Positions 23,212 through 48,205 of a stretch of 57,883 bases of DNA are shown piece by piece; the stretch's first letter is position 1, and each line of letters starts with the position of its first letter. The translations under genes were made by a program, and so were the position numbers. Under the pieces are notes generated by a model, which saw only the letters and a list, made by a program, of their open reading frames with translations, did no database searches and was not told where the DNA came from. The stretch comes from Leptospirales bacterium. Lineage in GTDB: Bacteria > Spirochaetota > Leptospiria > Leptospirales > Leptospiraceae. The stretch lies in NCBI GenBank assembly GCA_013297885.1, contig JAAFIR010000034.1:1-57883 (forward strand). Direction: 5' to 3'.

Positions 23212-23370
23212 TGGGCGATTCATCGCTTAACTTCGTTTAAGCGATATCGGGCTTTTCGCTACTTCTTTGGACTTGTTGGGAGACAGTGGGTTTTAACCCA
23301 CTGCCCTAAGTCCAAAGAAAAGCTGCAATCCCTATTCTCTCGGAAGAGAGAATGGGCTTGAACGGAGTTA
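23212..23370 (+). repeat. Composite palindromic element, copy 2 (type A)
   Basis: Starting just after the recG stop it reads GGGCGATTC, hairpin ATCGCTTAA/TTAAGCGAT, the box GGGCTTTTCGCTACTTCTTT, a large nested hairpin, then GCTGCAATCCC. In the nested hairpin TTCTTTGGACTT pairs with AAGTCCAAAGAA around an inner CAGTGGGTT/AACCCACTG stem. A further small hairpin (ATTCTCTC/GAGAGAAT) follows at 23334-23353. It probably ends recG transcription. The remainder to 23468 is featureless. Confidence 0.8.
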
Positions 23371-44924: not shown

Positions 44925-45063
44925 GCAAGCGATAGTGATTGTAGCGTTTCTTTAGACAGTGGGTTGAATTAGACAGCTGGTAGCTACCAGCTGTCCAGTG
45001 GGTTGCGACCCACTGTCTAAAGAAGTAGCGAAAAGCACGGTCGCCGCTTTGCGGCGAATCGCC
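44925..45063 (-). repeat. Composite palindromic element, copy 7 (type A)
   Basis: It begins directly after the sbtB stop: GGGCGATTCGCCGC, loop, GCGGCGACCGTGCTTTTCGCTACTTCTTT, a large hairpin, then AAAGAAACGCTACAATCACTATCGCTTG. The large hairpin pairs TTCTTTAGACAGTGGGT with ACCCACTGTCTAAAGAA. Nested within it are CAGTGGGT/ACCCACTG and a perfect 24-bp palindrome at 44972-44995 (half-site GACAGCTGGTAG). Confidence 0.85.
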
Positions 45064-45366
45064 CTAATTAAACTTTTCTGGTCTAAGCACTTCAACATTG
45101 GTGACAAAAGTAACCACTCCATAAGCTTTTAAGTATTTATCATACAAAACTTGTAGAAGTTTATTTGCTTTTTCTTCAGAGACCAAAGTTTCAATGCGAA
45201 TATTTTTTCCTTCCCAGTCAGACATTTTTTGGGAATGAAGACCTTGACCAACAGCATCACAAATTGTAAATCCTGAAATTTCTAATTTGGTAAACTCTTC
45301 CAAAATTTTTTTCTCTAAACTATCTAGTGCAATAATGGTAACTAATTTAACTTGTCTTAAATGCAT
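45064..45366 (-). CDS. sbtB: PII-like regulator SbtB
   Basis: A 100-residue PII-like protein. A longer frame opens at 45417, but the ATG at 45366 has a strong Shine-Dalgarno (GGAGG, 5 bp spacing) and falls just after the sbtA stop. The N-terminal 'VKLVTIIALDSLEKKILEEFTKL' and 'GFTICDAVGQG' strands and the C-terminal 'YGVVTFVTNVEVLR' are typical of the family. In cyanobacteria SbtB binds adenine nucleotides and controls the SbtA bicarbonate transporter. The C-terminal redox loop of some SbtB proteins is absent here. Confidence 0.8.
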   Translation of the reverse strand: MHLRQVKLVTIIALDSLEKKILEEFTKLEISGFTICDAVGQGLHSQKMSDWEGKNIRIETLVSEEKANKLLQVLYDKYLKAYGVVTFVTNVEVLRPEKFN

Positions 45367-45367
45367 G

Positions 45368-46348
45368 TCAACCTCCGTGAATTGTTTTTGCAATTGTATA
45401 ATAAACTGGTAATCCAATTGTTACATTAAATGGAAATGTAATTGCAAGTGAGGCTGTTAAATAATAAGTTGGGCTTGCTTCTGGAATTGCAATTCTAACT
45501 GAAGCAGGTGCTGCGATATAAGAAGCAGATGCACAAAGCACACCAAATAATGTGCTACCACCAACTGAAAGTCCAGCAAGATTTCCAAGATACACGCCAA
45601 TTGTTCCGTGTACTAATGGCATTGCTAATCCAAAGAAAATTAAAAACCAACCAGCTTTTTTTAAATCAGCTAATCTTCTTCCTGTCACAAGTCCCACTTC
45701 CAATAAAAACAAAGTCAACATTCCTCTGAAAGGTCCGTCAAAAAGTGGAGCGACTTGGTCATAGCCTTTTTTTCCACCTACCATTCCAATGATGATTCCA
45801 CCAACTAACAGTATTGTGCCTTTACCTGTGAGTAATTCATGTAAAACTTTTTTCATGTTTGAGCTTTCAGAAGTTTTTTCTTCTTTTAAAACTTTGGACA
45901 TAAAAATTGCAATGATGATTGCAGGAATTTCCATGATGGCTAACATACTAGACATATATCCTTCATAATCGACTTTCATTAAATCTAAAAATGATGTTGC
46001 TTCCGAAAAAGTCACAGCTGAAACTGAACCATAATGAGCTGCAATTGCTGCTGAATTTGCTACATCAAATTTTCCAAGTTTGTTTAAAATAAAGTAGGAC
46101 CAAACTGGAATCATCATACAAATTAAAATTGCAAAACTAGCTGGTTTTACTATTTGATCAAAACTTACGTTGGAAAGTTTGAGTCCACCTTTGATTCCAA
46201 TTGCAAATAATAAATATGCTGTTAAACCAAGATACCAACCTTCTGGAAATTTTAAATCTGATTTAACAACAGTTGCAATGATTCCAAGTAAAAAAGCTAG
46301 CACCATCGGTGAAGAAAGGCTAGCAAATAAGGAATTAAAAATTTCCAT
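45368..46348 (-). CDS. sbtA: Sodium-dependent bicarbonate transporter SbtA
   Basis: A 326-residue inner-membrane permease with about ten helices in two inverted halves. 'FPEGWYLGLTAYLLFAIGIKGG' and 'VSAVTFSEATSFLD' in the first half and 'GTIGVYLGNLAGLSVGGSTLFGVLCASASYIAAPASVR' in the second match the SbtA (PF05982) family. It should import bicarbonate with sodium. Its ATG overlaps the carbonic anhydrase stop by one base (TAATG), and sbtB follows after one base. The three are clearly one operon. Confidence 0.9.
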   Translation of the reverse strand: MEIFNSLFASLSSPMVLAFLLGIIATVVKSDLKFPEGWYLGLTAYLLFAIGIKGGLKLSNVSFDQIVKPASFAILICMMIPVWSYFILNKLGKFDVANSAAIAAHYGSVSAVTFSEATSFLDLMKVDYEGYMSSMLAIMEIPAIIIAIFMSKVLKEEKTSESSNMKKVLHELLTGKGTILLVGGIIIGMVGGKKGYDQVAPLFDGPFRGMLTLFLLEVGLVTGRRLADLKKAGWFLIFFGLAMPLVHGTIGVYLGNLAGLSVGGSTLFGVLCASASYIAAPASVRIAIPEASPTYYLTASLAITFPFNVTIGLPVYYTIAKTIHGG

Positions 46349-47082
46349 TATTCTTTTTCCTTCTCTTTTTTGGATTCAATTCTTGATTTATTTCTTGCTT
46401 TTAATTTAGATCTTTCAATTTCTTTATTTACTTGATCCAAATAATTACTTGGTAAAAATTCTACTTTGCCTGTGCTGATATCATAAACTGCACCAACTAT
46501 ATCTGCTGTTTTGTTTTTAACAGATTTTGATAGAACTGGCTCTAGTCCTCTTAAAGTTTTGACTTGCATAGCTACATTAATTTTTACAGCATTTTCAATG
46601 TGGTCTCCATCTTGTTCATTTGCTAACTCTGCCGCTGGCTTAATTGCATTGATTAACGTAACGATATGACCGGGAACTTCTGGAACTGTACATGCTGCAG
46701 CAACTGCTCCACATTTTGTGTGACCTAGCACAACAATTAATTTTGCTTTTAAAACTGCTTCAGCAAATTCGATACTTCCATATGATGCAAATGTGGAAAC
46801 TTGACCAGCTGTTCTCACAATAAATAGATCCCCAAGTCCTTGGTCAAAAATAATTTCATTTGGAACACGAGAATCAGAACAACCTACAATAATTGCAAAT
46901 GGATTTTGTCCTTTTGAAGTTTCTTTGATTCTGTCTATAGTTTGGTTTGGTCTAATTGATTTCCCTTCAATAAATCTTTTGTTTCCTTCTACAAGTCTTG
47001 CAAGTGCAACTTCTGGTTTGACTTGTGAATATAAATTAAATGCAACCAAGTTTAAAACTAGTAATTGAAATATTCTTTTCAT
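46348..47082 (-). CDS. Exported beta-carbonic anhydrase
   Basis: A 244-residue beta-class carbonic anhydrase with zinc ligands Cys68, Asp70 (CSDSR), His121 and Cys124 (HTKC). The first ~20 residues form a signal peptide ('IFQLLVLNLVAFNLYSQ'), so it probably works in the periplasm and interconverts CO2 and bicarbonate next to SbtA. A Lys/Arg/Glu-rich C-terminal tail ('KARNKSRIESKKEKEKE') extends beyond the family core. A GGAGA Shine-Dalgarno precedes the ATG. It is the first gene of the CA-sbtA-sbtB operon; the promoter must lie in 47083-47332, which is AT-rich with no clear operator. Confidence 0.92.
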   Translation of the reverse strand: MKRIFQLLVLNLVAFNLYSQVKPEVALARLVEGNKRFIEGKSIRPNQTIDRIKETSKGQNPFAIIVGCSDSRVPNEIIFDQGLGDLFIVRTAGQVSTFASYGSIEFAEAVLKAKLIVVLGHTKCGAVAAACTVPEVPGHIVTLINAIKPAAELANEQDGDHIENAVKINVAMQVKTLRGLEPVLSKSVKNKTADIVGAVYDISTGKVEFLPSNYLDQVNKEIERSKLKARNKSRIESKKEKEKE

Positions 47083-47332: not shown

Positions 47333-48205
47333 TCAATATTTTAGAAATTCAATATGACTTTTAATTTCTCCAATTCTGAAACAGGAATAAATAGAATTAG
47401 TTGTAGGAGTTTTTCCTTCCCAAACAGGCTCAATGCTTTTAATTTTCAAAGTTTTGTTAAATAAATAATCTGGAAGGATTGAAAATCCTTCGTAATTTTC
47501 TAAAAATTTCAAAATACTTATTAAATTAGGAAGAATAATTTTATTATTTATTTTAGGTCTTGAGTCAAAATTATTTTTCCAAAACCTTTTAATAATAGAA
47601 AAATTATTATCATATAAAATCCAATTATGAGTTAATAAATATTTTTCAACATCATTCCACTTATTTTTTTTTATAGCAAAAATAATTTCTTTTAAGTTAG
47701 ATTTTTTATTTCCTACTAAAATAAATTTCTCTTCATAAATCATTCTAGAATCAAAATCTTGAGAATTTGGTTTGATTGTAGAAATTACTAAATCTAAAGA
47801 TTTATTTTTTAATTTTTCTAACAAATTAATTGCTAAGCCAAATTCAACTGAAAATTGTTCAGGAAAATTATTTGAAATTTCTTTTGAAAAACAAGTAAAG
47901 AACTCCATTGGAGAACCAAGCTTCAAATAATTTTCTTTTTTTAATTCAGATTTTTTAAAATGTTTTTCAGTTCTTTCCAATAATTCCAAAGGCTCAATTA
48001 TTTTAGAATAAATTTCTTTTGCTCTATCTGTTGGAATTAATTTTCTTGGTGTTCTAATAAATAAAGTTTCTCCAATATAATTTTCTAAAGAAGCAAGCTG
48101 TTGACTTAATGCGGGTTGAGTTAATAATAACAAACCAGAAGCTTTTGTCAAAGTACCTGATTGGTATATCACTTTAAAAGTTCTATATAATTCTAAATTA
48201 ATCAT
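47333..48205 (-). CDS. LysR-family transcriptional regulator
   Basis: A 290-residue regulator. The N-terminal winged helix-turn-helix has 'SGTLTKASGLLLLTQPALSQQLASLENYIG' and the wing 'LFIRTPRKLIPTDRA'. A periplasmic-binding-protein-like effector domain follows. It is divergent from the DJ-1/PfpI gene, 109 bp away, the usual geometry for a LysR target. It is also upstream of, and co-directional with, the carbonic anhydrase operon (250 bp gap). It could control either; the divergent gene is the better guess. The effector is unknown. Confidence 0.9.
   Translation of the reverse strand: MINLELYRTFKVIYQSGTLTKASGLLLLTQPALSQQLASLENYIGETLFIRTPRKLIPTDRAKEIYSKIIEPLELLERTEKHFKKSELKKENYLKLGSPMEFFTCFSKEISNNFPEQFSVEFGLAINLLEKLKNKSLDLVISTIKPNSQDFDSRMIYEEKFILVGNKKSNLKEIIFAIKKNKWNDVEKYLLTHNWILYDNNFSIIKRFWKNNFDSRPKINNKIILPNLISILKFLENYEGFSILPDYLFNKTLKIKSIEPVWEGKTPTTNSIYSCFRIGEIKSHIEFLKY

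Follow-up and report, generated by a model that had tools for sequence, protein, structure and literature searches.

A candidate bicarbonate-supply operon of carbonic anhydrase, SbtA-fold permease and PII-like protein in a Leptospirales bacterium

Most bacteria need bicarbonate for their carboxylases at ambient CO2, and its textbook source is a cytoplasmic carbonic anhydrase (CA); MpsAB/DAB complexes are known to spare CA. The locus described here raises the question of what a Leptospirales bacterium gains from an operon in which a CA with a candidate export signal stands beside a permease and a PII-family gene resembling the SbtA-SbtB pair of cyanobacteria. The operon lies in a window of 57,883 nucleotides, meaning the whole stretch of DNA that was analysed (contig JAAFIR010000034.1), which belongs to a genome that is 99.99% complete (G000 in our set). 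SbtA-like proteins in heterotrophs have already been published, according to the excerpts available of PMC10117731 and PMC10880623, and a literature search, with subscription journals mostly outside it and some sources available in part, returned no description of an operon of exported CA, SbtA2-type permease and PII gene in heterotrophs.

The operon (45064-47082, minus strand) runs from a beta-CA gene (46348-47082, 244 aa; Pfam Pro_CA, E 4.3e-39) through the gene of an SbtA-fold permease of the 'SASYI' subfamily (45368-46348, 326 aa; Sbt_1, PF05982, E 8.6e-120) to the gene of a PII-like protein in the position of SbtB (45064-45366, 100 aa from its ATG; Pfam P-II, E 3.7e-18), in agreement with the coordinates and order of the original prediction. 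The tight coupling that it claimed is also present at both junctions, as the CA stop and the permease start share one base (TAATG) and the TGA stop of the permease gene is followed after a 1-bp gap by the ATG of the PII-like gene. For the latter, the program's list of open reading frames (ORFs) gives an alternative upstream TTG start (117 aa), and the ATG is the more plausible of the two because GGAGG precedes it. Given the family scores and the conservation in congeners, the operon is not a chance arrangement. The attribution to a spirochaete receives indirect support from a Leptospira-named family, LIC_11026, found in the genome at 609 bits against a cut-off of 325.

Seven bp past the PII-like stop there is a terminator-like hairpin (45041-45057, minus strand), a consensus match only. 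Further 3' of the operon lie nested perfect palindromes with 17-nt and 12-nt arms (44948-45024), whose core CAGTGGGTTGCGACCCACTG has a related copy at window positions 23284-23303; no such palindrome is expected by chance, and they are a repeat element outside the operon mechanism, perhaps a dispersed repeat. A LysR-type regulator gene, assigned by family match, lies upstream on the same strand (47333-48205, minus) and was set aside as the operon's regulator, being absent beside the operon in 3/3 congeners; it probably lies outside the conserved unit, and a different small DNA-binding-like ORF precedes the operon in two of these congeners (G001 and G003). The promoter reading was uninformative, with 17 found versus 17.8 expected in shuffled sequence, and the NCBIfam search gave no carbon regulator over its cut-off.

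The CA contains the strings CSDSR (C68-S-D-S-R72) and HTKCG (H121-T-K-C124), which we take to be the Cys, His and Cys zinc ligands and the Asp-Arg pair, and thus has the Pro_CA domain, the zinc-ligand residues and the Asp-Arg pair of a beta-CA. Its nearest solved structures are PDB 2a5v/1ym3 (E 6e-36), and the match begins at residue 22, directly past a hydrophobic N-terminus in which residues 1-20 are a predicted signal peptide (MKRIFQLLVLNLVAFNLYSQ; 47023-47082, minus strand). Taking for each CA the highest Kyte-Doolittle mean over 12 residues within the first 30, we obtained 2.4 for the window protein and 2.0-3.2 for the CAs of three congeners, versus -1.2 to 0.6 for 21 cytoplasmic-looking CAs of relatives, and in the former group the hydrophobic stretch closes with a small residue preceding Gln in all cases (4/4). 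A stricter rule, under which Asn and Gln were forbidden in the stretch, missed the hydrophobic region of the window protein, which two Asn and one Gln interrupt. At the level of sequence, the signal peptide claimed for the CA is thus upheld by a hydrophobic N-terminus in the window protein and 3/3 congeners against 0/21 cytoplasmic-looking CAs, and the window CA is likely exported.

The operon CA is the sole Pro_CA gene of the whole genome, in which searches for alpha-CA, RuBisCO and SulP gave no hit, so that the lack of Rubisco noted earlier for the window holds for the genome as well. Two Carboxyl_trans genes, for subunits of biotin-type carboxylases, are present. The genome also encodes a gamma-CA homologue, a 175-aa hexapeptide protein with the three His present that reaches 201 bits against an NCBIfam cut-off of 250; cytoplasmic CA activity may therefore not be missing, and the notion of a genome without cytoplasmic CA was dropped. 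An exported CA would serve either direction and no carbon-fixing enzyme was found (RuBisCO being absent from the genome), which would fit an outward system in which bicarbonate from a CO2-rich metabolism leaves through the permease and is dehydrated to CO2 by the CA in the periplasm, for pH control or CO2 disposal. However, the sodium gradient drives symporters of the SbtA type in the inward direction (PMC8352866), it is uptake that the PII-like partner of SbtA1 gates, and cyanobacteria needing uptake (Calothrix, Nostoc and Scytonema) have the same gene set; we regard such bicarbonate export as highly improbable.

The permease shares with the cyanobacterial SbtA1-SbtB system (Slr1512; PDB 7cye, 7egk, 7egl and 8zor) the fold, the two-gene pairing and a PII-family partner: an AlphaFold model built with 14 sequences (pLDDT 84.8) aligns with SbtA 8zor at Z 40.4 and rmsd 2.5 over 321 residues, against Z 22.0 for the best non-SbtA chain. 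Identity to SbtA1 is about 26%, however, and the linker between the permease halves is about 42 residues shorter in the window protein. In Slr1512, docking and mutagenesis assigned the bicarbonate site to Ser114, Tyr140, Ser324 and Ser327, and a change of Ser327 to Ala reduced transport (Liu et al. 2021, PMC8352866). The window permease has S110, L136, S276 and A279 at the equivalent places, and Y277 for Asp325; the contact set of SbtA1 is thus incomplete, the serines equivalent to S114 and S324 being kept and the other two of the four residues replaced.

These replacements characterise the whole subfamily. The SASYI string occurs in 102 of the 114 family rows aligned (the remainder including five more clade rows without the exact string and one SbtA1-type row filtered to 'other'), and all 102 have Tyr at the D325 place, Ala at the S327 place and Glu at the D144 place, with the limit that A112-to-S, D325-to-Y and S327-to-A were partly preselected by the choice of motifs in the 80 loci that came from a motif scan; the spirochaete and cyanobacterial rows were taken by PF05982 search without motif preselection. 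The place of Tyr140 is occupied by L, M, V or A, and by Tyr in 0/102. One row of the alignment (L031) includes seven extra residues ahead of its start. Eleven cyanobacterial rows were left out of the tree, nearly all of them duplicates, with one (L180) a separate second copy. This quick tree, of 103 rows in which L189 duplicates L152, parts seven SbtA1-type rows from the 96 others by a long branch with support of 100, and the window permease falls inside the 96-row clade. Residues and tree together led us to reject a near relationship to cyanobacterial SbtA1, and the prediction of a cyanobacterial-type SbtA did not stand, with two of four mutagenesis-supported bicarbonate ligands replaced and a separate clade.

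Within the 96-row clade, the window permease belongs to the half that contains Verrucomicrobia, Planctomycetes and Thermus-group rows. The genome holds a second SASYI-type permease, on contig C62, and it is this copy that groups with the cyanobacterial rows. A PF05982 search of 11 cyanobacterial genomes gave 12 places at 412-432 bits and three at 298-314 bits, a fragment and a weak match aside, and the higher-scoring class also belongs to the 96-row clade, but not to the half with the window permease. The two score classes agree with the SbtA1/SbtA2 split described for cyanobacteria in the accessible text of Cabello-Yeves et al. (PMC9477826), although the high-scoring rows can be equated with the published SbtA2 by elimination only. 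To judge from alignment and tree, the SASYI clade has members in many phyla, the second cyanobacterial SbtA being one of them. The part of a review (PMC13249358) available to us reports that SbtA2 of marine Synechococcus confers chloride-dependent bicarbonate uptake in E. coli and that SbtA2 has its own PII-like partner. Compared with the cyanobacterial SbtA2-SbtB2 system, as described in excerpts of Cabello-Yeves 2022 and of Rourke 2026 via the review, the window pair has in common the non-SbtA1 clade and the PII-like partner, and some Nostocales loci likewise include an exported-looking CA; it differs in the half of the clade to which the permease belongs. In the literature searched, partly available as excerpts, no transport or enzyme assay is reported for any member of the window permease's subclade.

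We therefore considered whether the permease could carry another small anion, such as a short carboxylate, with the CA serving pH balance or CO2-linked anion metabolism. The substrate-site changes shared by all SASYI rows (Y140 to L/M/V/A, S327 to A, D325 to Y and D144 to E), the long branch that separates them from SbtA1, the fold relatives, which include bile-acid symporters and auxin transporters, and the limited share of loci with a directly adjoining CA (12 of the best 80 among at least 580) would all suit such a permease. Against it, the linkage to exported-looking CAs recurs in unrelated phyla, and the clade includes the second cyanobacterial SbtA, whose bicarbonate uptake in E. coli is reported in the review excerpt (PMC13249358); we consider another anion unlikely. 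Bicarbonate is our best guess for the substrate, since among these best 80 of at least 580 loci a CA adjoins the permease type in 12, and in 10 of them looks exported.

The 80 loci are the best of at least 580 relatives obtained in one scan of genome contigs with the motifs [YF]GS[VI]SAVTF or ASASYIA[VA]P, and organism and metagenome-assembled genome names are used as deposited. Within this best-80 set, a PII-like gene was near the permease in 62 loci, its distance from the stop codon of SbtA being -25 to +60 bp in 59 cases, and a CA gene was found in 17. The CA directly adjoins the SbtA-PII pair, or SbtA alone, on the same strand and with no more than 68 bp between them, in 12 of the 80 (L083, L085, L093, L095, L104, L110, L116, L126, L150, L152, L154 and L156), from Verrucomicrobia, Planctomycetes, Gemmatimonadaceae, Nostocales and Sphingomonadales, and stands before or after the pair in several phyla. 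Sec, Tat or lipoprotein signals were assigned by eye to 10 of the 12 adjacent CAs, with none on L154 and L156. In Haloferula rosea (L113), an exported-looking CA lies 450 bp upstream; the mechanical ORF caller set some starts too far upstream, that of this CA among them. As an internal control in the same 80 loci, inner flanks (within 1 kb of the pair) held 14 CA ORFs in 152,371 bp and outer flanks (beyond 1 kb) four in 523,777 bp. On the tree, where 18 rows are labelled for CA, adjacency changed at least 10 times, gains and losses being counted together. A RuBisCO-family match was present in one of 13 genomes, hand-picked from the non-cyanobacterial loci.

Closer to the window, the order CA-SbtA-PII on one strand is conserved in 3/3 congeners (G001, G002 and G003). 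The CA of G002 is shortened in frame to 66 aa by an internal deletion, keeping the signal peptide and losing the active site (L026:6409-6609, L212), which may be either a real loss or an assembly artefact, and the SbtA and PII-like genes of G002 are intact. This persistence of the pair beside a lost CA active site is what would be expected of a conserved neighbourhood without a joint pathway, in which the CA would serve only periplasmic pH/CO2 equilibration. The TAATG overlap and 1-bp gap in the window and the adjacency of CA in several phyla, before or after the pair, count against such a neighbourhood, which we think quite improbable.

In the wider relatives, a PF05982 match over the cut-off was present in 15/61 genomes (relatives search) and in 17/392 (phylum search). 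The CA directly adjoins a SASYI permease in 0/9 other carrier genomes of the class outside the genus, and in G023 a cytoplasmic-looking CA lies 1.2 kb from the permease with an opposite-strand gene between them. With CA classes assigned by eye in 48 genomes of the class, a standalone cytoplasmic beta-CA was found in 3/13 genomes with a SASYI SbtA versus 18/35 without (p 0.107, kinship ignored), and at completeness of at least 90%, a filter chosen after the data had been seen, in 1/10 versus 12/22 (p 0.024, likewise ignoring phylogeny). A strict one-or-the-other rule for SbtA and cytoplasmic CA was rejected, and the pattern is a trend only. Within genus g6, two genomes (G008 and G020) have a SASYI SbtA and no beta-CA, and in two others (G009 and G010) a cytoplasmic beta-CA is present and SbtA absent. 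That genomes have either a cytoplasmic CA or a dissolved inorganic carbon (DIC) transporter has been published for other groups, as given in the excerpt of PMC10880623.

The third gene was predicted to be SbtB, of which the PII-family gene beside SbtA stands but the strict SbtB identity does not. The nearest solved relative of the protein is TTHA0516 (PDB 2cz4, E 1e-22), presumably from Thermus thermophilus to judge by the locus name, followed by SbtB (3e-6). Its T-loop is short (GQGLHSQKMSDWEG) and ends in DWEG as in TTHA0516, which is deposited as a hypothetical protein and keeps the GSRGIR arginines that are gone from the window protein. GSRGVR or a similar string is retained by many of the PII-like proteins from the 62 loci (among the best 80 of at least 580). 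In the window protein, Arg43 is replaced by His and Arg46 by Lys (6mm2 numbering), Arg43 also being lost in the PII-like proteins of three congeners, and these two T-loop arginines are required for the apyrase activity of SbtB according to the excerpt of PMC10117731. Additionally, the C-terminal end, VLRPEKFN, has no cysteine and no R-loop; the R-loop CGPxGC occurs in about half of cyanobacterial SbtBs in the text available of PMC10991534. With both arginines lost, no R-loop and TTHA0516 as the closest relative, nucleotide control cannot be assumed. The partner thus differs from that of SbtA1, and the operon differs from the SbtA1-SbtB pair in having a CA; the name SbtA/SbtB hides differences of both parts from the characterised proteins.

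Taken together, we read the locus as a bicarbonate-supply operon that probably combines periplasmic CO2 hydration with bicarbonate import for carboxylases. The exported CA would hydrate CO2 in the periplasm, both that of the environment and that which escapes from respiration, and the SASYI permease, a trimeric elevator-type symporter by analogy, would carry the bicarbonate inward. An ion gradient would power the import, with sodium as the likely ion if SbtA1 is a guide, and chloride may be required, as reported for cyanobacterial SbtA2. A PII-like trimer would dock on the cytoplasmic face of the permease and gate it, and the imported bicarbonate would feed cytoplasmic carboxylases in an organism without cytoplasmic beta- or alpha-CA. 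In favour of bicarbonate supply count the SbtA fold, the conservation of the operon and the PII-like pairing; the CA enrichment in inner flanks with its at least 10 tree changes; a genome without another beta-CA, an alpha-CA or SulP; the rarer cytoplasmic beta-CA in class genomes with a SASYI SbtA; and, as far as the excerpt of PMC10880623 goes, the published one-or-the-other pattern and DIC transporters in heterotrophs. Counting against it are the replacement of two of the four SbtA1 bicarbonate ligands, one of them by Ala, the lack of a direct CA neighbour in 68 of the best 80 of at least 580 loci and in nine class genomes, the retention of SbtA and the PII-like gene without an active CA in G002, and the gamma-CA homologue. 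Of the original proposal, the exported-looking CA, the SbtA fold and the PII-like partner in one operon of a genome without RuBisCO are upheld, and carboxylase subunits are present, for which fatty-acid synthesis may be one use of the bicarbonate; the SbtA1 type and the strict SbtB fall away.

The permease type is widespread and little-studied, and is unlike cyanobacterial SbtA1 at its substrate-binding site. Proteins annotated as 'SbtA' in heterotrophs include a subfamily whose substrate site is different. Extracellular CA and SbtA are also found together in the DIC toolkits of autotrophs, which share with the window genome, in the part of PMC10880623 available, the combination of DIC transporter and extracellular CA and the one-or-the-other relation with cytoplasmic CA; the window genome differs in having no RuBisCO and in a single operon that includes a PII-like gene. 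Together with the corresponding loci of several phyla, the operon suggests an alternative to the textbook supply, namely hydration outside the cell and import of bicarbonate. A possible though more doubtful generalisation is that non-autotrophs in many phyla import bicarbonate as a rule through the SASYI SbtA, whose site lacks a Tyr and a Ser of cyanobacterial SbtA1 and has a new Tyr beside the shared Ser. Combined with an exported CA, and gated by a PII-like protein no longer reading adenylates in the cyanobacterial way, it would form a periplasmic 'hydrate and import' pathway replacing supply by cytoplasmic CA. This little-characterised PF05982 branch, with its at least 580 relatives, is directly testable in CA-free E. 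coli assays.

Other arrangements of related genes were seen in the genome and the class. The second permease gene, on C62, lies directly 3' of a complex-I-related hyfB-C-E-F-G-HI-like cluster (L003:11087-17877, L046:184-2789), and genes for a SulP transporter and a PII-like protein are also part of the same cluster in G003 (L024) and G005 (L033). On inspection by eye, the protein resembling HyfG is without the paired cysteines of NiFe hydrogenases, and the cluster may therefore be an energy-coupled DIC system. Long ORFs of 601-728 aa ending in a beta-CA domain, best read as SulP-CA fusions, occur in eight class genomes (L199, L200, L202, L048, L050, L051, L052 and L058) and are commoner with a SASYI SbtA (5/13 genomes vs 3/35). 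Finally, G001 and G002 encode membrane-anchored CA-like proteins of 214-223 aa without the HxxC zinc motif (L205, L206, L207 and L208).
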